Made by a program: the position numbers and the translations under genes
From: Actinokineospora spheciospongiae
GTDB taxonomy: Bacteria; Actinomycetota; Actinomycetes; Mycobacteriales; Pseudonocardiaceae
Direction of reading: 5' to 3'
DNA: 54,259 nucleotides
Assembly: GCF_000564855.1 (NCBI RefSeq)
Contig: NZ_AYXG01000100.1
Location: forward strand, 1-54,259
Shown: positions 3,378 to 50,588 of the stretch, one piece after another
Layout of the letters: each line of letters opens with the position of its first letter
How positions within the stretch are numbered: position 1 is the first letter of the stretch
The notes under the pieces: generated by a model
The model's input: the letters and a program-made list of their open reading frames with translations, nothing else
What the model was told of the DNA's origin: nothing
The model's database searches: none

Positions 3378-5543
<2,166 letters not shown>

Positions 5544-31528: not shown

Positions 31529-32389
31529 GTGGCGGAGGCGCAGAGCGGCGGGCCCACCGCGCGCCGCATCGTGCTCGGTTCCCAGCTCCGCAGACTCCGC
31601 GAGCGCGCCGAGATCACCCGCGCCGAGGCCGGGTACCACATCCGCGGGTCCGAGTCGAAGATCAGCCGCATGGAGCTGGGCCGGGTCGGTTTCAAGGAGC
31701 GGGACATCGTCGACCTGCTGGCCCTCTACGGGGTGGACGACCCCACCGAGCGCGACCAGTTCCTCGACCTGGTCCGCCAGGCGGGTGAGCCCGGGTGGTG
31801 GCACCGCTACAGCGACCTGATGCCCACCTGGTTCCAGGACCTGGTCGGGCTGCAGGAGGCCGCGTCCCGGTTGCAGATGTACGAGCTGCAGTTCGTGCCC
31901 GGTCTGCTGCAGACCGAGGAGTACGCCAGGGCGCTGGTCAGCCAGGGCCGCCCCGACCTCGCCACCGCGGAGACCGAGCGGCTGGTCGCGCTGCGGATGT
32001 CGCGGCAGAACATCCTGCGCAGCCTGAGCGCGCCGAAGCTGTGGGCGGTCGTGGACGAGTCGGTGTTGCACCGGCCGATCGGCGGGGCGCGGGTGCTGCG
32101 CGAGCAGATCGATCACCTGCTGGAGGTGACCCGGCTGCCGAACGTGACGTTGCAGGTGGTGCCGTACGCGCTGAGCGGGTACGCGGCCGAGGGCTCGTTC
32201 TCGATCCTGCGCTTCACCGAGCCGGAACTGCCCGACCTGGTCTACCTGGAGCACCTCGGCGGCGCGGCGTACCTGGACCGGCCCGAGGAGATCGAGCGCT
32301 ACAGCCGCGTGGCCGACCGGTTGACCGTCGACGCGGAGACGCCGAGCCACACGCGGCAGTTCCTGGTCAAGCGCCGCCAGGAGATCTGA
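31529..32389 (+). CDS. XRE-family transcriptional regulator with DUF5753 domain
   Basis: 286 aa. The helix-turn-helix occupies about 10-70 (LGSQLRRLRERAEITRAEAGYHIRGSESKISRME). The DUF5753 domain follows (about 95-280), with GLQEAASRLQMYELQFVPGLLQTEEYA and GSFSILRFTEPELPDLVYLEH. I chose GTG 31529 because AAGGG at 31515-31519 has proper spacing to it; ATG 31520 would sit directly on that site. Proteins of this type regulate development and antibiotic production in Streptomyces and pair with a small DUF397 protein, present here at 32588. The palindromes between them (32499-32561) are its likely operators. Confidence 0.9.
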   Translation: MAEAQSGGPTARRIVLGSQLRRLRERAEITRAEAGYHIRGSESKISRMELGRVGFKERDIVDLLALYGVDDPTERDQFLDLVRQAGEPGWWHRYSDLMPTWFQDLVGLQEAASRLQMYELQFVPGLLQTEEYARALVSQGRPDLATAETERLVALRMSRQNILRSLSAPKLWAVVDESVLHRPIGGARVLREQIDHLLEVTRLPNVTLQVVPYALSGYAAEGSFSILRFTEPELPDLVYLEHLGGAAYLDRPEEIERYSRVADRLTVDAETPSHTRQFLVKRRQEI

Positions 32390-32498
32390 CCCGAATCTTA
32401 TTTTGCTTCACCTTTTTGTGTCGCCCTGACAGCTCCTCGTTCGACTCTGCGCATCCCCGTTCGCACGTTCGAGTTCCACGAGCGGATGACACTTTCGG

Positions 32499-32561
32499 AT
32501 GCACGTGCATGTGCAAGCCCTTCGACCGTGTTACGGTCAGCAACGGCAGATGCACGTGCAG
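32499..32561. promoter_or_regulatory. paired palindromic operators upstream of DUF397 gene
   Basis: Two copies of ATGCACGTGCA: a 12-bp perfect palindrome ATGCACGTGCAT at 32499-32510 and a second copy at 32550-32560 (TGCACGTGCA palindrome 32551-32560), starting 51 nt apart. Between them a TACGGT (32532-32537) could serve as the -10, so the sites would cover the -35 and the transcription start. The XRE-DUF5753 protein encoded just upstream is the obvious candidate ligand. The DUF397 gene starts 27 nt downstream of the second copy. Confidence 0.6.
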
Positions 32562-44051: not shown

Positions 44052-44131
44052 TCGGTCACCTCCTGATTCCAGGAAGCGACGCTAAGCCCTTGATTGCTGG
44101 TTTACGGTTACGTGCTCACGCTACCTCGCCG

Positions 44132-44150
44132 GGGGTACAGGGTGTACCCC
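44132..44150. promoter_or_regulatory. 19-bp palindromic operator candidate
   Basis: GGGGTACA-N3-TGTACCCC, perfect 8-bp arms, about 80 nt upstream of the 26-aa peptide gene. The symmetry and size fit a helix-turn-helix dimer site; the XRE proteins encoded at 44287 and 46138 are candidates. Confidence 0.5.
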
Positions 44151-44219
44151 TCCAAAATGTGAAGATGAGTACGTCCATATCAAGACCGTCGGTCGACCTC
44201 AAGGTTCTGAGAACAACAC

Positions 44220-44286: not shown

Positions 44287-45366
44287 TCACGCGCCAGCGA
44301 TGTTCTGTTTCGGTTGATCTCCGGATGGCCTCACAGCCCGCAGTCGTCGGCGCATCATGAACGGATGTTCGGCAGCGGCAGGGTGGTAGCCTGCCAATTC
44401 GGCGACCTCGCCATCAGTTAACCCTTTGGCCCGGAGCGCCCCGCCCAAGGTGGCGATCAACTCCGGAACTTCAGGCGCAAGGCTATCGCTACCAGGCTCG
44501 GAGGTTTTCCAACCGCGAGCGTTCATTGCCTTGTAGAACGAGGTCCGCTCCGCAGCGCTGGCCAGTTTGAGGTGGTAGGCCCGCTCGAACAGTGCCTGCA
44601 TGGACACTCCCCACACCCGCTTGAGGTCGACCAGGCGACCAATGGTTGGTGGTCGCAGATCTGGCTTGATGACGTGGTCAGGCATGAGGAACTGGGCGGC
44701 GAACTCGTTGGCTTCGCGCTCGGGGTCATCGCTGGCCAACCCATTGTGGAGGACCAAATGACCAAGTTCGTGGGCGAGGGTGAGTCGCTTGCGGTCAGTG
44801 GGCACGGCACTGTTGATGAGCATGACCGGGTGGTTGCCGATCCACTGGGAGAGCCCATCGACCCGGGAAGTGCCGAAATCTTCCTCGAAGATCACGCATC
44901 CTGCTGACTCCAGCCAACGCATCAGATTCCGAACGGGTCCTACGGGCATACGCCATTGGGCGCGGACCATTAGTGCTGCTTCCGCTGGTGGGGTGTCGAG
45001 AGGGTCGAAAGTGGGAACTGACTGCTCAGCGCGCATCGACACCTCCTCGAACAATTCGGAGACATGCAGACGGTGCTTGTTGAGGCGGGCCTCCCACATG
45101 GTCCACAGCGACGGCTTGGCTGTGGCCTGTCGCCGCATATGCGCATCAACGGCGAGCGCGCCCCGTACTGTGTGGTCCCGAGTCAACAACCGCTTGGAGA
45201 CACCGAAAATCTCTGCGAGGCGTTCCAGCGTCGCATCATCCGGTGTCCGTTGGTTGTTCTCATATCGAGACATGGTGGCCTGCGTCACGCCGAGCGCGGT
45301 CCGCAGGTCCTCCTGTTTCCACCCACGGGCGCGGCGAAGTGTCTCCAGCACTTCGCCAAGGCTCAT
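44287..45366 (-). CDS. XRE regulator fused to ImmA/IrrE-type metallopeptidase
   Basis: 359 aa. The N-terminal helix-turn-helix is at 1-62 (LRRARGWKQEDLRTALGVTQATMSRYE). The ImmA/IrrE domain follows: HELGH at 199-203 in LTLAHELGHLVLHNG, and the third zinc-ligand segment EREANEFAAQFLMPD (216-230). ImmA-type proteases cleave a phage or ICE repressor to allow induction; repressor and protease are fused in one chain here, or the protein acts on another regulator such as the one at 46138. The ATG at 45366 overlaps the upstream gene's stop by 4 nt. GC content is visibly lower than in the chromosomal part. Confidence 0.85.
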   Translation of the reverse strand: MSLGEVLETLRRARGWKQEDLRTALGVTQATMSRYENNQRTPDDATLERLAEIFGVSKRLLTRDHTVRGALAVDAHMRRQATAKPSLWTMWEARLNKHRLHVSELFEEVSMRAEQSVPTFDPLDTPPAEAALMVRAQWRMPVGPVRNLMRWLESAGCVIFEEDFGTSRVDGLSQWIGNHPVMLINSAVPTDRKRLTLAHELGHLVLHNGLASDDPEREANEFAAQFLMPDHVIKPDLRPPTIGRLVDLKRVWGVSMQALFERAYHLKLASAAERTSFYKAMNARGWKTSEPGSDSLAPEVPELIATLGGALRAKGLTDGEVAELAGYHPAAAEHPFMMRRRLRAVRPSGDQPKQNIAGA

Positions 45367-45980
45367 GATGTTTCGTCCTCCGCCTCATCGACAACCGCGG
45401 CCAAGTCGAATTGCGGTAGGGTCGGGTCGACAGGTGTGCGGGTGATCTGCGTGCCACCGGCTTCGTCGGAGTCCGATTCGCCGAGTTGAACCACCCAGAA
45501 CGGAGTCTTATCCAGGCCGTCTCGCAGGGACACCACTGCTGCCCCCATGTTCCGTAGCTCGGCATCCCAGCGGTAACCGAACCCCAGGCGGATCTCTTCA
45601 AGGCCATCCAAGGTGGGCACTGCGCCCTGCGCCCAAAAAGCCAGCGCAGCACGTGTGGGGTACGAACGAACCTTGTCGTTATCTGCGTGCCGTTTCACCC
45701 GTGCTCTGTAGCGAGTGCCGACCAAGACCTCCCTTGTAGGCCCGCACTCCAGGAACTCCACTCCTGCAACGTCATGCAAGTGATGGCGCAGGTTGGCGAA
45801 CATGCGGTCGTGGACCCAGTTCGACAGGCCCCGGTCGCTGTGCTGGACCACGAATTGAGGAAGGGTCTCGCGGTAGAGAGTGAGGTCGTTCCGGCTGGCC
45901 TGCGTGGCATCCGACAAACCACGCAGTACCTTCTCGCCAAGATCGTCGAGCACGGCATCCGAGCTGGGTGCTGAAAACAT
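45363..45980 (-). CDS. partner of XRE-ImmA, unknown function
   Basis: 205 aa from ATG 45980. Blocks: SAPSSDAVLDDLGEKVLRGL, LYRETLPQFVVQHSDRGLSNW, VEFLECGPTREVLVGTRYRAR, FGYRWDAELRNMGAAVVSLRDG, and an acidic C-terminus. No domain recognised. It is translationally coupled to the XRE-ImmA gene. There is no Shine-Dalgarno; TATATT lies about 7 nt upstream of the ATG as a -10, so the mRNA is probably leaderless, starting at or one base before the ATG. A longer frame to 46049 is less likely. The pairing suggests a sensor, target or antitoxin-like partner. Confidence 0.7.
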   Translation of the reverse strand: MFSAPSSDAVLDDLGEKVLRGLSDATQASRNDLTLYRETLPQFVVQHSDRGLSNWVHDRMFANLRHHLHDVAGVEFLECGPTREVLVGTRYRARVKRHADNDKVRSYPTRAALAFWAQGAVPTLDGLEEIRLGFGYRWDAELRNMGAAVVSLRDGLDKTPFWVVQLGESDSDEAGGTQITRTPVDPTLPQFDLAAVVDEAEDETS

Positions 45981-46137
45981 ACCAGAAAATATACCACCTG
46001 CATGGCTGGCCCGCTCGTGCCTACCGGTCAGACCCGTGCTGAGGCACACTGCCGCCGGTATGGTCCGCTAGCGGCATCGCTGCCGCGTGCGCCTTCGCAA
46101 CGAAGGTGGGGGTCCACGATGTCATCTTCGGGAGGTA

Positions 46138-47361
46138 CTACACAGCGACCCCGAGATCCGTGGCCAGTGCGCGAGCCTCGCGTTCGATCAGACTCCCGCC
46201 GGAGGTGACCAGCTCTCCGGCCAGAGTGCGTGCAAGCGGGTGGCAGGTCATCGACTCGCGGCTGATCCGGGTCGCACGCTGAAGCACGTGCAGGCTGGCC
46301 GTGTTCTCCTTGCGCTGCCGGTAGCCGCGAGCGACGTCCAGCCACACCCTGGCACGCCGATCCAGTGACGGGACCTTGTCCGGGTCGGCAGCCTCAGCGG
46401 TAGTCACCGCGGCTCCGCCCTTGTGCAGTTCGACCTGCACACTGACCCCGGTCAAGGCCGCGTTTGCCGCTCCGAACAGCGTTGCGGGGTGGGCGTATCC
46501 GGATGGAAGCCGCGTGGACATGTCGGCGGCGTCGTCCAAGCGCCGCAGGGCGTCGCCCTCGCGGCCCATCTTCGCCGCGGTGATCGCCCCGTGTGCTCGA
46601 ACCGCGCCCCACAGCGCCCGCGGCTCGTCGTCGTCTCCGTCGAGCGCGGAGGCGAGAAGCCCGGCGGCGTCGTCGGCGAGCTGGAGGGCGTCGTCCTCGC
46701 GGCCAGTGCTGCGCCAGACGTTACCGACTACCCACGCCGCGGAGGCCAGCGCGCGCGGCTCGTCGGCTTGCTCTGCGGCGGACATGCACCGGTCAGCGGC
46801 CAGCCACAGCAGCGCCGAGTCCGCCACCCACGCGAGCATCTGCCCGGAGAGGGCGTAGGCGGACGACAGCGCGGCGTGCGCTTGGCGCCGGTCGGCTCCG
46901 TCGAGAGAGCGCGCGGCGTGGCGGCCGTCGGTGATGATCCGGGGCAGCACCGCGCCCACGGCGTCCCGCGGGGTGGGGGAGGAGTGCCAGAGCGCCCAGG
47001 CGTCGGCGACTCGGCGGGCGAGGTCGGTGGCCGACACCGGCCTCGCGGCGGCGAGCGAGAGGAGCGGGGCCTCGATCGCCTCGCGCACCCCTGAGACCGC
47101 CGCGTGCCCGGTCCTGCCTTGGAGGGCGAAGGGCGGTTGCTGTTCGCCGACGAGCACCGCGAGGTCGACACCGAGGACCCCAGCGAGCCGCATCAGCATG
47201 TGCACGTCGGGCGCGTTCCGACGCCCGCGCTCGACAGACTTGAGCCACTCCTCGGACCGGCCGACCAGACCGGCGACCACGGGCCGGGTCTTCCCCTTGC
47301 GCTCACGGACGGTCTGGATTCGAGCGCCGATCGAAAGCCCCGCGAGCTCGTCAACTGGCAC
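46138..47361 (-). CDS. XRE regulator with TPR-like C-terminal region
   Basis: 407 aa. HTH at about 11-65 (IQTVRERKGKTRPVVAGLVGRSEEWLKSVERG). The remaining ~330 residues are alpha-helical repeats (AWVADSALLWLAADRCMSAAE, WVVGNVWRSTGREDDALQLAD, ARVWLDVARGYRQRKENT) like the TPR-type sensor domains of Rgg/ImmR-like and actinobacterial plasmid or ICE regulators. Such domains often bind a small peptide or protein signal. It begins at the divergent region that contains the large palindrome, so it is a candidate switch for the rightward replication operon. A CCTACC-N6-GGTAGG inverted repeat lies about 70 nt upstream of its start. Confidence 0.85.
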   Translation of the reverse strand: MPVDELAGLSIGARIQTVRERKGKTRPVVAGLVGRSEEWLKSVERGRRNAPDVHMLMRLAGVLGVDLAVLVGEQQPPFALQGRTGHAAVSGVREAIEAPLLSLAAARPVSATDLARRVADAWALWHSSPTPRDAVGAVLPRIITDGRHAARSLDGADRRQAHAALSSAYALSGQMLAWVADSALLWLAADRCMSAAEQADEPRALASAAWVVGNVWRSTGREDDALQLADDAAGLLASALDGDDDEPRALWGAVRAHGAITAAKMGREGDALRRLDDAADMSTRLPSGYAHPATLFGAANAALTGVSVQVELHKGGAAVTTAEAADPDKVPSLDRRARVWLDVARGYRQRKENTASLHVLQRATRISRESMTCHPLARTLAGELVTSGGSLIEREARALATDLGVAV

Positions 47362-47428
47362 GATGTGCCCCCTTCGGCTGGCCTCGCCCGCGGAGGAGCT
47401 GGCGCCGCGGAGAGGGGTACTGACTCCA

Positions 47429-47446
47429 CCTACCTCTCAGGGTAGG
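47429..47446. promoter_or_regulatory. inverted repeat upstream of XRE-TPR gene
   Basis: CCTACC (47429-47434) and GGTAGG (47441-47446) with a 6-bp spacer, a possible autoregulatory site for the XRE protein starting at 47361. Confidence 0.35.
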
Positions 47447-47553
47447 CCCTTCTCGGCTTCCGTGGGACCTCCGCGACGCCGAGGACGCGGGTGGTCGCCG
47501 CGGAGGATCGGCGCCGACCGGGTGCCAGGGGCGGTGCGGACGCGGCGGGAGGG

Positions 47554-47670
47554 CAAAACCCCACTGAGAGTGGGGTTTTAGTGCCCTGTCCCTATTCCCC
47601 CTTAGAGAGAGCGTCTCTCTAAGGGGGAATAGGGAGAACCCACTAAAACCCCACTCTCAGTGGGGTTTTG
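47554..47670. repeat. 117-nt palindrome built of three nested hairpins
   Basis: The whole segment is self-complementary around 47612: 54 of 58 positions in each arm pair. It contains a central perfect 22-bp stem (47589-47610 with 47614-47635, loop GCG) and two 25-nt outer hairpins (47555-47579 and 47645-47669) that are exact reverse complements of each other and each fold alone (AAAACCCCACT/AGTGGGGTTTT). The only mispairs are at 47584-47586 and 47588. Each outer stem ends in a T4 tract, so as RNA they look like efficient terminators in both directions; as DNA the unit could form a cruciform. It lies in the divergent region between the XRE gene and the replication operon. Confidence 0.95.
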
Positions 47671-47799
47671 AGGACGCTGCCGCTTCTCCGCGCAGCGGAC
47701 CGGCCCAGATGAGCGACGAGTCACGGCGAGCGCAGACCTTATCTAATAAGACCCCCGGCGCTGCTCCAATAGTCGGGATTCCTCGAAAGGAGAGGCGCC

Positions 47800-48000
47800 G
47801 TGCTGCCGACGCCCGGACGCTGGCGGACCTGCCGCGAGTGCAATCGACCCTTCGACGCCTCCGGCGTTGGCCGCCCGCCTGTTCGATGCGGAGAAGTGTG
47901 TCGCCGTGCTGCCGACGCCCGGCGCAACCGGATCGCCCGCGTCCGGCTGATCTCGGCGAGGGACAAGCTGGCGGCCGTCACCGCGCAGCTTGCGGCGTGA
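47800..48000 (+). CDS. small zinc-ribbon protein
   Basis: 66 aa from GTG 47800, with AAGGAGAG 6 nt upstream. Cys-x2-Cys in WRTCRECNRPFDA and Cys-x3-Cys in VRCGEVCRRAAD make a treble-clef or zinc-ribbon module (residues about 11-34), followed by a basic helix (RRNRIARVRLISARDKLAAV). It is the first gene of the rightward operon, 222 nt before the primase-polymerase. Similar mini zinc-ribbons are frequent in actinophage and plasmid early regions. Nucleic-acid binding is likely but unproven. Overlapping frames on both strands lack a ribosome site. Confidence 0.7.
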   Translation: MLPTPGRWRTCRECNRPFDASGVGRPPVRCGEVCRRAADARRNRIARVRLISARDKLAAVTAQLAA

Positions 48001-48042
48001 TCCCCGTGTGGCCTTCGGCCCACTGACCGTCACGCCCCCATA

Positions 48043-48175
48043 CCTCGGACTGGTCCTCCGAGGGGACGCACCGCCAACGGCGGATCTCGCGTGGTGATCG
48101 GAAGGGCGGCGGCTTCGGCCTGCCGCCCTTCCCGCACCGCGAGCCAACGTCCCCAACCAGACCACCACCACGCGA
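48043..48175 (+). promoter_or_regulatory. structured leader upstream of primase-polymerase
   Basis: Three stems in the 222-nt gap: CCTCGGA/TCCGAGG (48043-48049, 48057-48063); an outer stem TCGCGTGGTG/CACCACGCGA (48087-48096, 48166-48175); and, enclosed by it, GGAAGGGCGGC/GCCGCCCTTCC (48100-48110, 48122-48132) with a TTCG-containing loop. The nested perfect stems suggest a structured RNA or a DNA initiation site. The primase start codon is 48 nt downstream. Confidence 0.55.
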
Positions 48176-48222
48176 TCCGGCGGCTGACCTCCGCCAACGA
48201 TCCCCGAAGGACGACCCCCACC

Positions 48223-50427
48223 ATGACCTCGACGACCCTGGGCACCTTCGCCCACCACGCGGAGCGCTACCGCGCCGCAGGCTGGTTCGGCACGCTGCCT
48301 CTCCCCGCCAACGCCAAGTACCCGCCCCCCGGCGGCTTCACGGGCGGTTCCGGCGGCTGGCCCACCGATCAGGACATCTCCGCGTGGGGCGCGCGCTTCG
48401 GCGACAGCTTCAACCTCGCCCTCCGGCTGCCCGAGGACGTCATCGGCGTCGACATCGACGCCTACGGCGACAAGCCCGGCGCGACCACGCTGGCGGAGGC
48501 CGAAGCCCGGTGGGGCACCCTCCCCGCGACCTACACCTCCACCGCCCGCGCGGACGGCGTCTCCGGCATCCGGATCTACCGCGTCCCCGCCGGTCTGGCG
48601 TGGAACGAGGAGGTCGGACCGGCGGTCGAGGTGATCCAGTACGGCCACCGGTACATGGTCGCCGCGCCCTCGACCAACCCGAAGACCGGCACGGCCTACC
48701 GGTGGACGACGCCGCAGGGTCTCCCGGTCGACGTGCCGATCCTCGCCGAGATCCCCGCGCTCCCCGATGCGTGGGTGGCCGGGCTGACCCGCGGACCTCT
48801 GGCCGATGAGCGGCGGCGCCGGGTCGGCGTGGACGTCGATGCCTGGCTCGCCGACCTCCCCGACGGCCCGCCGTGCGCCGACGTGGAGGAGGCCCTCGAC
48901 CGCGCCCGACTCGCGCTGTCCGGCGGTGGCAGCCGGTACGACGCCGCCGTGCACGGAACAATGGCCCTGGTCGGTAGAGGCCGCGGAGGCTGCTCCGGTG
49001 TCGCCGGAGCACTGCTCACCCTCCGGGCCGAGTACGAGGACGCTGTCGCTGGCGAGTCCCGCGACCCCCGCGAGTGGGACCGCTCGTTCCGCGGCGCTGT
49101 GGAGAAGACCGCCGGTCAGCGGGTCGAGTTCCACGAACGTTGCATCGAACATCAGGCCCGAATGTTGGTCTTCGACTACACCCCGCCCTCACTCTGGGAT
49201 GAGCGCCCGATCCTGCGGCACCTGCACGACTTCGCCCGCGGTCGGCGAGTGGCGCCGCTGGCCGTACTCGGCGTGACCCTGGCCCGCGTGGTCGCGGCAA
49301 CGCCGTCCAATATCGTTCTCCCGCCGATCATCGGCGGAGACGGGACGCTGAACCTCTTCGTGGCCCTTGTCGGAGATTCCGGCGCTGGCAAGGGCTCCGC
49401 GGAAGCCGCCGCGGCCGAGGCCATCGACATCTCAGCGCTGACCGACCGCATCTCCGGCGAGCCAGTCCGCACCGTGAACGTCGGCTCCGGCGAGGGCTTC
49501 GCCCACATGTTCGTAACTCGGAGACAGGGCGAACTGGTCCGTATCAGGGACTCGGTCCTCTTCTCTGTCCCCGAGGTCGACACCCTCTCCGCGCTGGGCG
49601 CCCGGCAAGGCGCGACGCTCATGCCGGTACTTCGGTCGGCATGGTCAGGTGAGCGGATCGGCTTCTCCTACGCGGACCCCACGAAGGCCCTGGACATCGA
49701 GCCCCGGTCCTATCGGTGCGCGCTGCTCCTCGGAGTCCAGCCCGCCAAGGCCGGTCCCCTTCTCGGCGACGCGGAGGGAGGCACGCCCCAGCGGTTCCTG
49801 TGGGTGCGTGCCGCCGACAAGGGGATACTCAAGAACCCGCCGCCGCCCCCGACCCCCGTCGTCTGGGATCGGAAGTACCCCACGGTTCCCCGCTATGAGA
49901 TGGCGGTGACCCGCGAGGCCGTTGACGAGATCGGCGACGCTCACTGGCGCCGGAGCAGGGGAGAGGGCGACGCGCTCGACGGCCACGCGCTCTACACCCG
50001 GCTCAAGGTCGCCGCGGCGCTGGCGCTGTTGGACCGGAGACTCGACGTCACCTCCGACGACTGGCGCCTCTCCGGCCGGATCATGGCCCTGTCCGATCGG
50101 ACCCGGGCCGGAGTTGTGGCCGACCTCCGCGAGCGAGCCAGCAAGGCCAACATCGGCCGCGCCAAGGCCGAGGCCGCCCGCGCGGTCGTCGTCGCCGAAG
50201 CCGTGGACGCACAAGCCATACAGCGCGCCAGCCGGGCCGTGAAGACCGCGCTGGGCAAGAACCCCGGCGGGTGGATGTCAGCGGGCGAACTACGTCGAGC
50301 GGTACCGAGCCGGGTCCGCCGAGACCTGGACGACGCCCTCGACGCGCTGGGCCTCTCCGGCGACATCGACACCGAGGCGATCACCTACCGCGGACAACAG
50401 GGCACCCGGTACCGGCTCCGCGGGTGA
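48223..50427 (+). CDS. bifunctional primase-polymerase with ATPase/helicase domain
   Basis: 734 aa. N-terminal AEP Prim-Pol domain (about 1-190): GWFGTLPLPANAKYPPPGGFTG, metal-binding VDIDAYG with Asp77 and Asp79, and EVIQYGHRYMVAAPSTNPKTG with His142. A middle segment links to a P-loop ATPase: Walker A VGDSGAGKGS (383-392), Walker B-like SVLFSVPEVD, and RFLWVRAADKG. A C-terminal winged-helix-like region is SAGELRRAVPSRVRRDLDDALD. The ATG at 48223 follows GAAGGA (48206-48211). This architecture is the replication protein of phages, satellites and RepPP-type actinomycete integrative elements. It should prime and unwind at an origin; inverted repeats just downstream are candidates. Confidence 0.9.
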   Translation: MTSTTLGTFAHHAERYRAAGWFGTLPLPANAKYPPPGGFTGGSGGWPTDQDISAWGARFGDSFNLALRLPEDVIGVDIDAYGDKPGATTLAEAEARWGTLPATYTSTARADGVSGIRIYRVPAGLAWNEEVGPAVEVIQYGHRYMVAAPSTNPKTGTAYRWTTPQGLPVDVPILAEIPALPDAWVAGLTRGPLADERRRRVGVDVDAWLADLPDGPPCADVEEALDRARLALSGGGSRYDAAVHGTMALVGRGRGGCSGVAGALLTLRAEYEDAVAGESRDPREWDRSFRGAVEKTAGQRVEFHERCIEHQARMLVFDYTPPSLWDERPILRHLHDFARGRRVAPLAVLGVTLARVVAATPSNIVLPPIIGGDGTLNLFVALVGDSGAGKGSAEAAAAEAIDISALTDRISGEPVRTVNVGSGEGFAHMFVTRRQGELVRIRDSVLFSVPEVDTLSALGARQGATLMPVLRSAWSGERIGFSYADPTKALDIEPRSYRCALLLGVQPAKAGPLLGDAEGGTPQRFLWVRAADKGILKNPPPPPTPVVWDRKYPTVPRYEMAVTREAVDEIGDAHWRRSRGEGDALDGHALYTRLKVAAALALLDRRLDVTSDDWRLSGRIMALSDRTRAGVVADLRERASKANIGRAKAEAARAVVVAEAVDAQAIQRASRAVKTALGKNPGGWMSAGELRRAVPSRVRRDLDDALDALGLSGDIDTEAITYRGQQGTRYRLRG

Positions 50428-50436
50428 TCTTGATTG

Positions 50437-50588
50437 AGCAGTGGACAGGTGGACACCTGACCAACGCTCGCCGCGATCCGCCTGCACTGTGGGAAAACAA
50501 ATCTCTCTCTGACCTGCACGAATACACCGCGCCGGGCTGCCTCCGTCGAGCCAAGCAGTGGCCAGGTGTCCACCTGTCCACTGCTTGG
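50437..50588. repeat. inverted 23-nt repeat pair, candidate origin
   Basis: A 23-nt sequence at 50437-50459 is repeated exactly in inverse orientation at 50565-50587 (as reverse complement), inside a 38-bp near-perfect palindrome 50551-50588 (18-bp arms with one mismatch). Each copy has internal CAGGTG/CACCTG symmetry. The 90 nt between include an AT-rich patch (GGGAAAACAAATC, 50491-50503). The location immediately after the replication gene, with paired sites flanking an AT-rich patch, fits a replication origin or initiator-binding site. Confidence 0.7.

Follow-up and report, generated by a model that had tools for sequence, protein, structure and literature searches.

A 117-nt compound palindrome between the regulator and replication genes of a phage-like element in Actinokineospora spheciospongiae

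Between a leftward XRE regulator gene and a rightward Prim-Pol operon lies a near-perfect 117-nt palindrome in which a 22-bp hairpin is flanked by two identical 25-nt hairpins of opposite orientation. It is not a product of chance. We tentatively explain it as a two-way terminator or insulator between the divergent operons, a model built on its anatomy, its position, the absence of matches elsewhere and its predicted folding, from which we infer termination and the promoters. A separate stem-loop directly behind the Prim-Pol gene is the better candidate for the replication origin. The window, i.e. the whole stretch of DNA analysed (54,259 nucleotides), is an entire contig of a 7.5 Mb genome assembled in 262 contigs.

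Anatomy and statistical weight of the palindrome

The symmetry was computed about the centre of the segment, where 53 of the 58 symmetric pairs are Watson-Crick and none is G-U. Four of the five misses are clustered (the pairs of 47584, 47585, 47586 and 47588), and the fifth is the pair beside the centre, which together with the centre base makes up a 3-nt loop. The preliminary description, which presented the segment as one palindrome centred at 47612, with outer 25-mers that are exact reverse complements, a central stem of 22 bp and failing pairs clustered at 47584-47588, is correct in its coordinates and in these features; the loop-closing pair has only to be added to its four misses. The identity of the outer hairpins extends to their loops. 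The left hairpin, calculated with one flanking base, has a folding energy of -15.1 kcal/mol, and the right one, with one additional base on each side, -15.8 kcal/mol; the central hairpin, in which 47589-47610 pairs with 47614-47635, reaches -42 kcal/mol with short flanks. The segment has a G+C content of 53% as compared with 76% and 70% in its flanks, and only 14 of 54,143 windows of the palindrome's length, its own included, are equally A+T-rich. Apart from the palindrome, this A+T-richness is reached only at 44064-44218 and 32379-32510; the former adjoins an XRE/ImmA-type gene and could be the left edge of the element.

Table 1. Coordinates of the palindrome, its parts and the neighbouring features
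Feature	Position	Strand	Remarks
Whole compound palindrome	47554..47670	.	centre 47612
Left hairpin	47555..47579	.	11-bp stem, GAG loop, A4 5' and T4 3' of a G+C-rich core
Right hairpin	47645..47669	.	exact reverse complement of left hairpin
Central hairpin	47589..47635	.	22-bp stem, GCG loop, no T tract
Mismatch patch	47584..47588	.	against 47636-47640; 4 of 5 pairs fail; sole patch within the arms
XRE/HTH_31 regulator, 407 aa	46138..47361	-	phrog_5823 transcriptional regulator
Likely -10 of regulator gene, TACCCT	47439..47444	-	putative; -35 matches 3/6
-10-like hexamer TAAGGT	47736..47741	-	putative; overlaps symmetric CTTATCTAATAAG (47738-47750); best -35 matches 1/6
66-aa protein with four cysteines	47800..48000	+	phrog_16925, E 3.2e-6; RBS-like AAAGGAG upstream
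Prim-Pol/DUF3987 replication protein, 734 aa	48223..50427	+	stop codon at 50427
Candidate replication origin	50437..50585	.	10 nt after Prim-Pol stop; opposed GTGGACA repeats

The best centres in three simple shuffles of the window had 31-32 of 57 positions paired as against 52 for the palindrome, and the next best real centre within the window had 36 of 57. The expectation, by an independent-site estimate, is 1.5e-18 per window. Folding z-scores were -16.9 and -15.3 for RNA of the two strands, and -18.0 for DNA. In a scan which allowed loops of up to 30, the palindrome scored 45 and its runner-up 23 in 998,212 bases of the same genome (66 stretches with the window among them, about 13% of the total). 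By comparison the top score among 267 other loci (1,846,409 bases), a non-random sample that includes loci picked by palindrome-like patterns, was 36, at a locus designated L245, followed by 25; stricter scans based on seeds did not pick up L245, and their next scores were 23 and 25. The symmetry is thus, as had been remarked earlier, far beyond that of ordinary terminators.

Genomic setting and searches for relatives

To the left of the XRE regulator lie a gene for a 228-aa protein and, beyond it, one for an XRE/ImmA-type protein. The two genes overlap and occupy 44287-46049; relatives of the XRE/ImmA-type protein are 57% identical in a Mycobacterium abscessus prophage record and approximately 55% identical in Gordonia phages. 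On the other side of the palindrome, a 32-nt direct repeat (84% identical) is found at 47785-47816, where it spans the start of the 66-aa gene, and again within that gene at 47891-47922. Beyond the Prim-Pol gene, between 52260 and 54259, are a tail-like match (phrog_226, E 2.5e-14) and a weak scaffold-like one (E 4e-5), and the region has the appearance of a prophage or phage-like element truncated at the contig end. A search for the end sequence in other contigs gave only a 24-nt match in one (C146), and none of the nine tyrosine-integrase matches in the genome falls on this contig. The 439-nt interval holding the palindrome has only two TANNNT hexamers, both leftward, and no rightward promoter of this form is evident in it. 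Hexamers similar to the likely -10 of the regulator gene were seen, by eye, upstream of two regulator homologues. Since the leftward TAAGGT sits on the far side of the palindrome from the regulator, a transcript starting there could enter the palindrome and run leftward through it.

No relative of the palindrome was recovered by nucleotide searches, and none sharing its intergenic region was found. A 146-nt query matched its own genome, on both strands, solely at its own place; in 100 genomes (own included) all other matches were short, at no more than 33.7 bits, and 296 genomes of the class (own included) yielded two others at E 0.01, the better of which is 22 nt long (36.5 bits). Blastn gave zero matches to 50,697 phage records (query 47400-47800) and zero to 72,556 plasmid records (query 47540-47700). 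The arrangement A4C4, a gap of 3-20 nt and G4T4 does not occur a second time in the genome. The searches of viral contigs were confined to short patterns. The exact 25-mer hairpin had three matches there, in stretches of 31-40% G+C, which, with the sequence of one inspected, were taken as unrelated. A 17-mer of the central arm had one match, inside an open reading frame of locus L177 with no listed inverted repeat. Among the matches listed for the pattern TATTCCCC...GGGGAATA, which cover at least 120 stretches, nothing resembles the compound structure, and two matches to a genome-contig pattern, in a Dehalococcoidia bin and a Brevinematales bin, were also taken as unrelated.

The neighbourhoods of related genes were equally unproductive. 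The palindrome was present at none of 24 loci within up to 700 nt upstream of regulator homologues (54-70% identity), the best score being 14 and the sequence at two loci shorter or incomplete (549 nt at L201; 70 N in the stretch at L199); the additional locus L210 likewise has none. Nothing comparable was seen in six Gordonia phages, one Nonomuraea plasmid and ten genome loci with Prim-Pol genes, in 29 Prim-Pol genome loci (best score 16), in 22 Prim-Pol viral contigs (best score 19) or in four Streptomyces phages with a related regulator (best score 18), and among six longer Prim-Pol genome stretches only the 93-nt palindrome of L245 compares; many of the Prim-Pol loci begin at the match inside the gene, and their upstream reach varies. 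The preliminary description had pointed to Prim-Pol genes of other elements as the place to look for this segment, but, L245 apart, it did not turn up in the Prim-Pol loci examined. A single-protein query for Prim-Pol relatives gave none in the genome contigs or viral contigs searched. With Rfam, the region 46000-50000 had below-threshold matches only, and those over the palindrome were all to microRNA hairpins and fell short of the gathering score. A literature search over titles and the beginnings of abstracts, with subscription journals mostly outside its range, found no description of such a compound palindrome for the switch region of a phage, nor is there anything on one in the portions available of PMC3218068, on actinobacterial integrating elements, or of PMC7157519, on extrachromosomal prophages of mycobacteria.

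A proposed transcription barrier and competing explanations

A two-way terminator or insulator is the explanation that we put forward, with reserve. RNA polymerase coming from either side would meet a terminator hairpin, then the central hairpin and then the second terminator hairpin, and such a barrier would keep stray or divergent transcription of each operon out of the other. Each 25-mer is terminator-like on both strands, at approximately -15 kcal/mol, and has the G+C-rich hairpin with a short loop expected of a bidirectional terminator. If both strands are to fold, G-U pairs have to be absent because a G-U on one strand is an A-C on the other; their complete lack among the 53 pairs fits this, and is also compatible with any symmetry at the DNA level. 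In a test system in E. coli, bidirectional terminators kept strong antisense promoters from exerting their effect (PMC4731013). As with bidirectional intrinsic (Rho-independent) terminators, the outer hairpins of the palindrome combine an A-tract, a G+C-rich stem and a T-tract on both strands and lie between transcription units. Unlike them, it consists of two identical inverted copies around a longer third stem, is situated between divergent rather than convergent genes, and has T tracts of only 4. A terminator scan which needs 5 T in 8 listed neither outer hairpin. Also counting against the barrier are the central hairpin, which has no T tract, the two -10-like hexamers, neither of which has a good -35, and the searches, in which no homologue with a conserved structure appeared. 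Terminators between divergent promoters are not usually expected, as neither main transcript would cross them, and the identity of the outer hairpins, loops included, exceeds the need of termination. If the palindrome is an insulator it would be an unusually compact natural two-way barrier, of the type of part that separates neighbouring transcription units, and would illustrate the way in which the two programmes of a phage-like switch are kept apart.

The predicted folding of a transcript depends on its length. Short transcripts are predicted to form separate hairpins; at about 100 nt the first hairpin would open into a foldback of some 53 pairs. At full length the RNA of each strand folds into one long hairpin of about -101 kcal/mol (-61 for the plus strand as DNA), whereas three local hairpins give about -74 kcal/mol, which disfavours, for the full-length transcript, the three-way RNA structure proposed earlier. 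The long foldback would compete with the distal terminator hairpin, and one may speculate that a burst of transcription from either side might break through while stray polymerases stop, or that the long double-stranded RNA is a possible substrate of RNase III. Since transcripts of either strand would be nearly the same molecule, a strand-symmetric RNA switch acting as a direction-neutral gate in the lysis-lysogeny decision is conceivable, and we consider it very unlikely.

The three palindromes might alternatively be binding sites through which a regulator of the element, XRE or other, controls the divergent promoters at the level of DNA. Their place in a presumed switch region, the presence of two identical 25-bp palindromes plus a third, and a 23-nt hairpin core that does not recur in the genome even when 3 mismatches are allowed would suit operators. 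There is also a parallel in mycobacteriophage BPs, where, in the part of PMC4557955 available, a 12-bp palindrome is described in the repressor operator between two divergent promoters. Like the BPs operators, the present palindromes lie between divergent operons beside a regulator gene; they differ in that the structure is much longer, has no dispersed copies that were found (none in the window when as many as 3 mismatches are tolerated) and is not conserved with the regulator family, as its absence upstream of all 24 homologues attests. Moreover the palindrome is placed some 110 bp upstream of the -10 that the regulator gene likely uses, and its A4/T4 ends are terminator-like. Operators are, on this evidence from sequence, an unlikely but serious alternative. 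Comparably improbable is a functionless relic, in which a hairpin already in place was extended by an inverted duplication or template switch into a long palindrome that is still undecayed. No relative carrying it was found, it has more symmetry than termination needs, its mismatches are confined to one patch and it lacks G-U pairs, all of which would agree with a relic; but it fills an intergenic regulatory position, and long palindromes tend toward instability in bacteria, so that the persistence of a near-perfect one tends to call for a reason.

Under the barrier model, the arms were probably made identical by template switching, as their exact identity and the single mismatch patch (the probability that 4 mismatches fall inside a 5-position span is 5.4e-4) suggest, and this process during DNA synthesis would have created or kept that identity. 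Such switching is reported to make the arms of inverted repeats uniform and to generate and preserve hairpins (PMC8604942, PMC8794818). The preliminary description's attribution of the symmetry to selection or a recent duplication-inversion was therefore reasonable, with template switching as the event that the perfect arms and clustered mismatches fit.

Two further origins for the structure carry little probability. Palindromic miniature elements such as ERIC, NEMIS and other MITEs are intergenic foldbacks of 100-150 bp, and the palindrome, as an intergenic foldback whose ends coincide with the edges of an A+T-rich island and which is flanked by a 4-nt repeat (GAGG at 47549-47552 and 47670-47673), might be an insertion of this kind between the operons. 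However, chance produces a 4-nt repeat often enough over the 64 shifts tried, and this one makes the ends asymmetric. MITEs exist in multiple copies; the palindrome occurs at a single place in its genome, with no second copy among the 100 or the 296 genomes searched (own included), and has neither a convincing target duplication nor relatives that were found. Such an insertion is accordingly highly improbable. An assembly artefact, finally, is the least credible explanation of all. In its favour are the single known copy and the example of L245, whose 93-nt palindrome (5151-5243, score 36) stops 100 nt short of the end of a contig of 5,343 bases and is an inverted repetition of positions 4931-4995 of that contig; its place near the contig end and the inverted copying of nearby sequence make an assembly fault probable there. 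The segment described here, in contrast, is 6.6 kb inside its contig, has flanks that are unique in the genome search, and includes interior bases that are asymmetric.

A candidate replication origin behind the Prim-Pol gene

The preliminary description had also suggested a cruciform origin. Such a structure might be recognised by the Prim-Pol protein in the manner of the approximately 100-nt stem-loop of plasmid pRN1. According to the pRN1 study (PMC4234260), replication depends on a stem-loop of some 100 bp that lies 54 bp behind the replication gene; the authors propose that it is the origin and state that they have no direct evidence for this. The palindrome is likewise a foldback of about 100 nt within a Prim-Pol replication module, near the Prim-Pol gene, and the essential pRN1 stem-loop still worked after relocation on the plasmid (same study). 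It differs from that of pRN1 in lying upstream of the gene, by some 550 nt, and in its tiny 3-nt loop as against the long loop of pRN1, and no 117-nt palindrome was seen in the stretches fetched from relatives. The pRN1-like place is held, here and in many relatives, by another stem-loop with opposed repeats directly 3' of the Prim-Pol stop, which in the window pairs 26 of 27 positions between 50437-50463 and 50559-50585 around a 95-nt loop. In place and form the pRN1 stem-loop resembles this candidate and not the palindrome. The palindrome is thus probably not a replication start site, and its recognition by the Prim-Pol protein as an origin or cruciform has only a slim likelihood; the candidate origin, in a form common to relatives, sits just downstream of the Prim-Pol gene instead.

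The repeats behind Prim-Pol genes were counted at 57 of 68 loci, the window kept, after four loci with no stop, three with a short downstream region and four identical ones had been dropped. Some of these loci are near relatives of each other, and the counts are therefore not of independent events. Against random sequence of matched dinucleotide content, a 7-mer recurred in excess within 300 nt of the stop at 38 of the 57 (p<=0.01); the other 19, the window among them (p 0.015), fell short of p 0.01. Repeat arrays were far fewer at control places, with two in 57 inside the gene and none in 51 at 600 nt further on. A long inverted repeat stronger than in all 12 random controls was found at 33 of 37 loci, window included, a proportion which is not an unbiased rate as the 37 were chosen mostly for showing repeats; the exceptions are L037, L224, L254 and L272. 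Within the same range of titles and abstract beginnings, again with subscription journals mostly outside, a search for repeat stem-loops downstream of actinobacterial Prim-Pol genes found none beyond the pRN1 work (PMC4234260, PMC3869888), and the available portions of PMC3218068 and PMC7157519 have nothing on them.

The search for an origin is thereby moved to the stem-loop directly after actinobacterial Prim-Pol genes, which links these genes to the replication model of pRN1. A similar stem-loop lies 3' of the replication gene of phage BIP-1, and in pRN1 primer synthesis starts at GTG, altering most of the GTG motifs being without effect (both from PMC4234260). The GTG within the GTGGACA repeat recalls this primer start, a likeness which is only suggestive.
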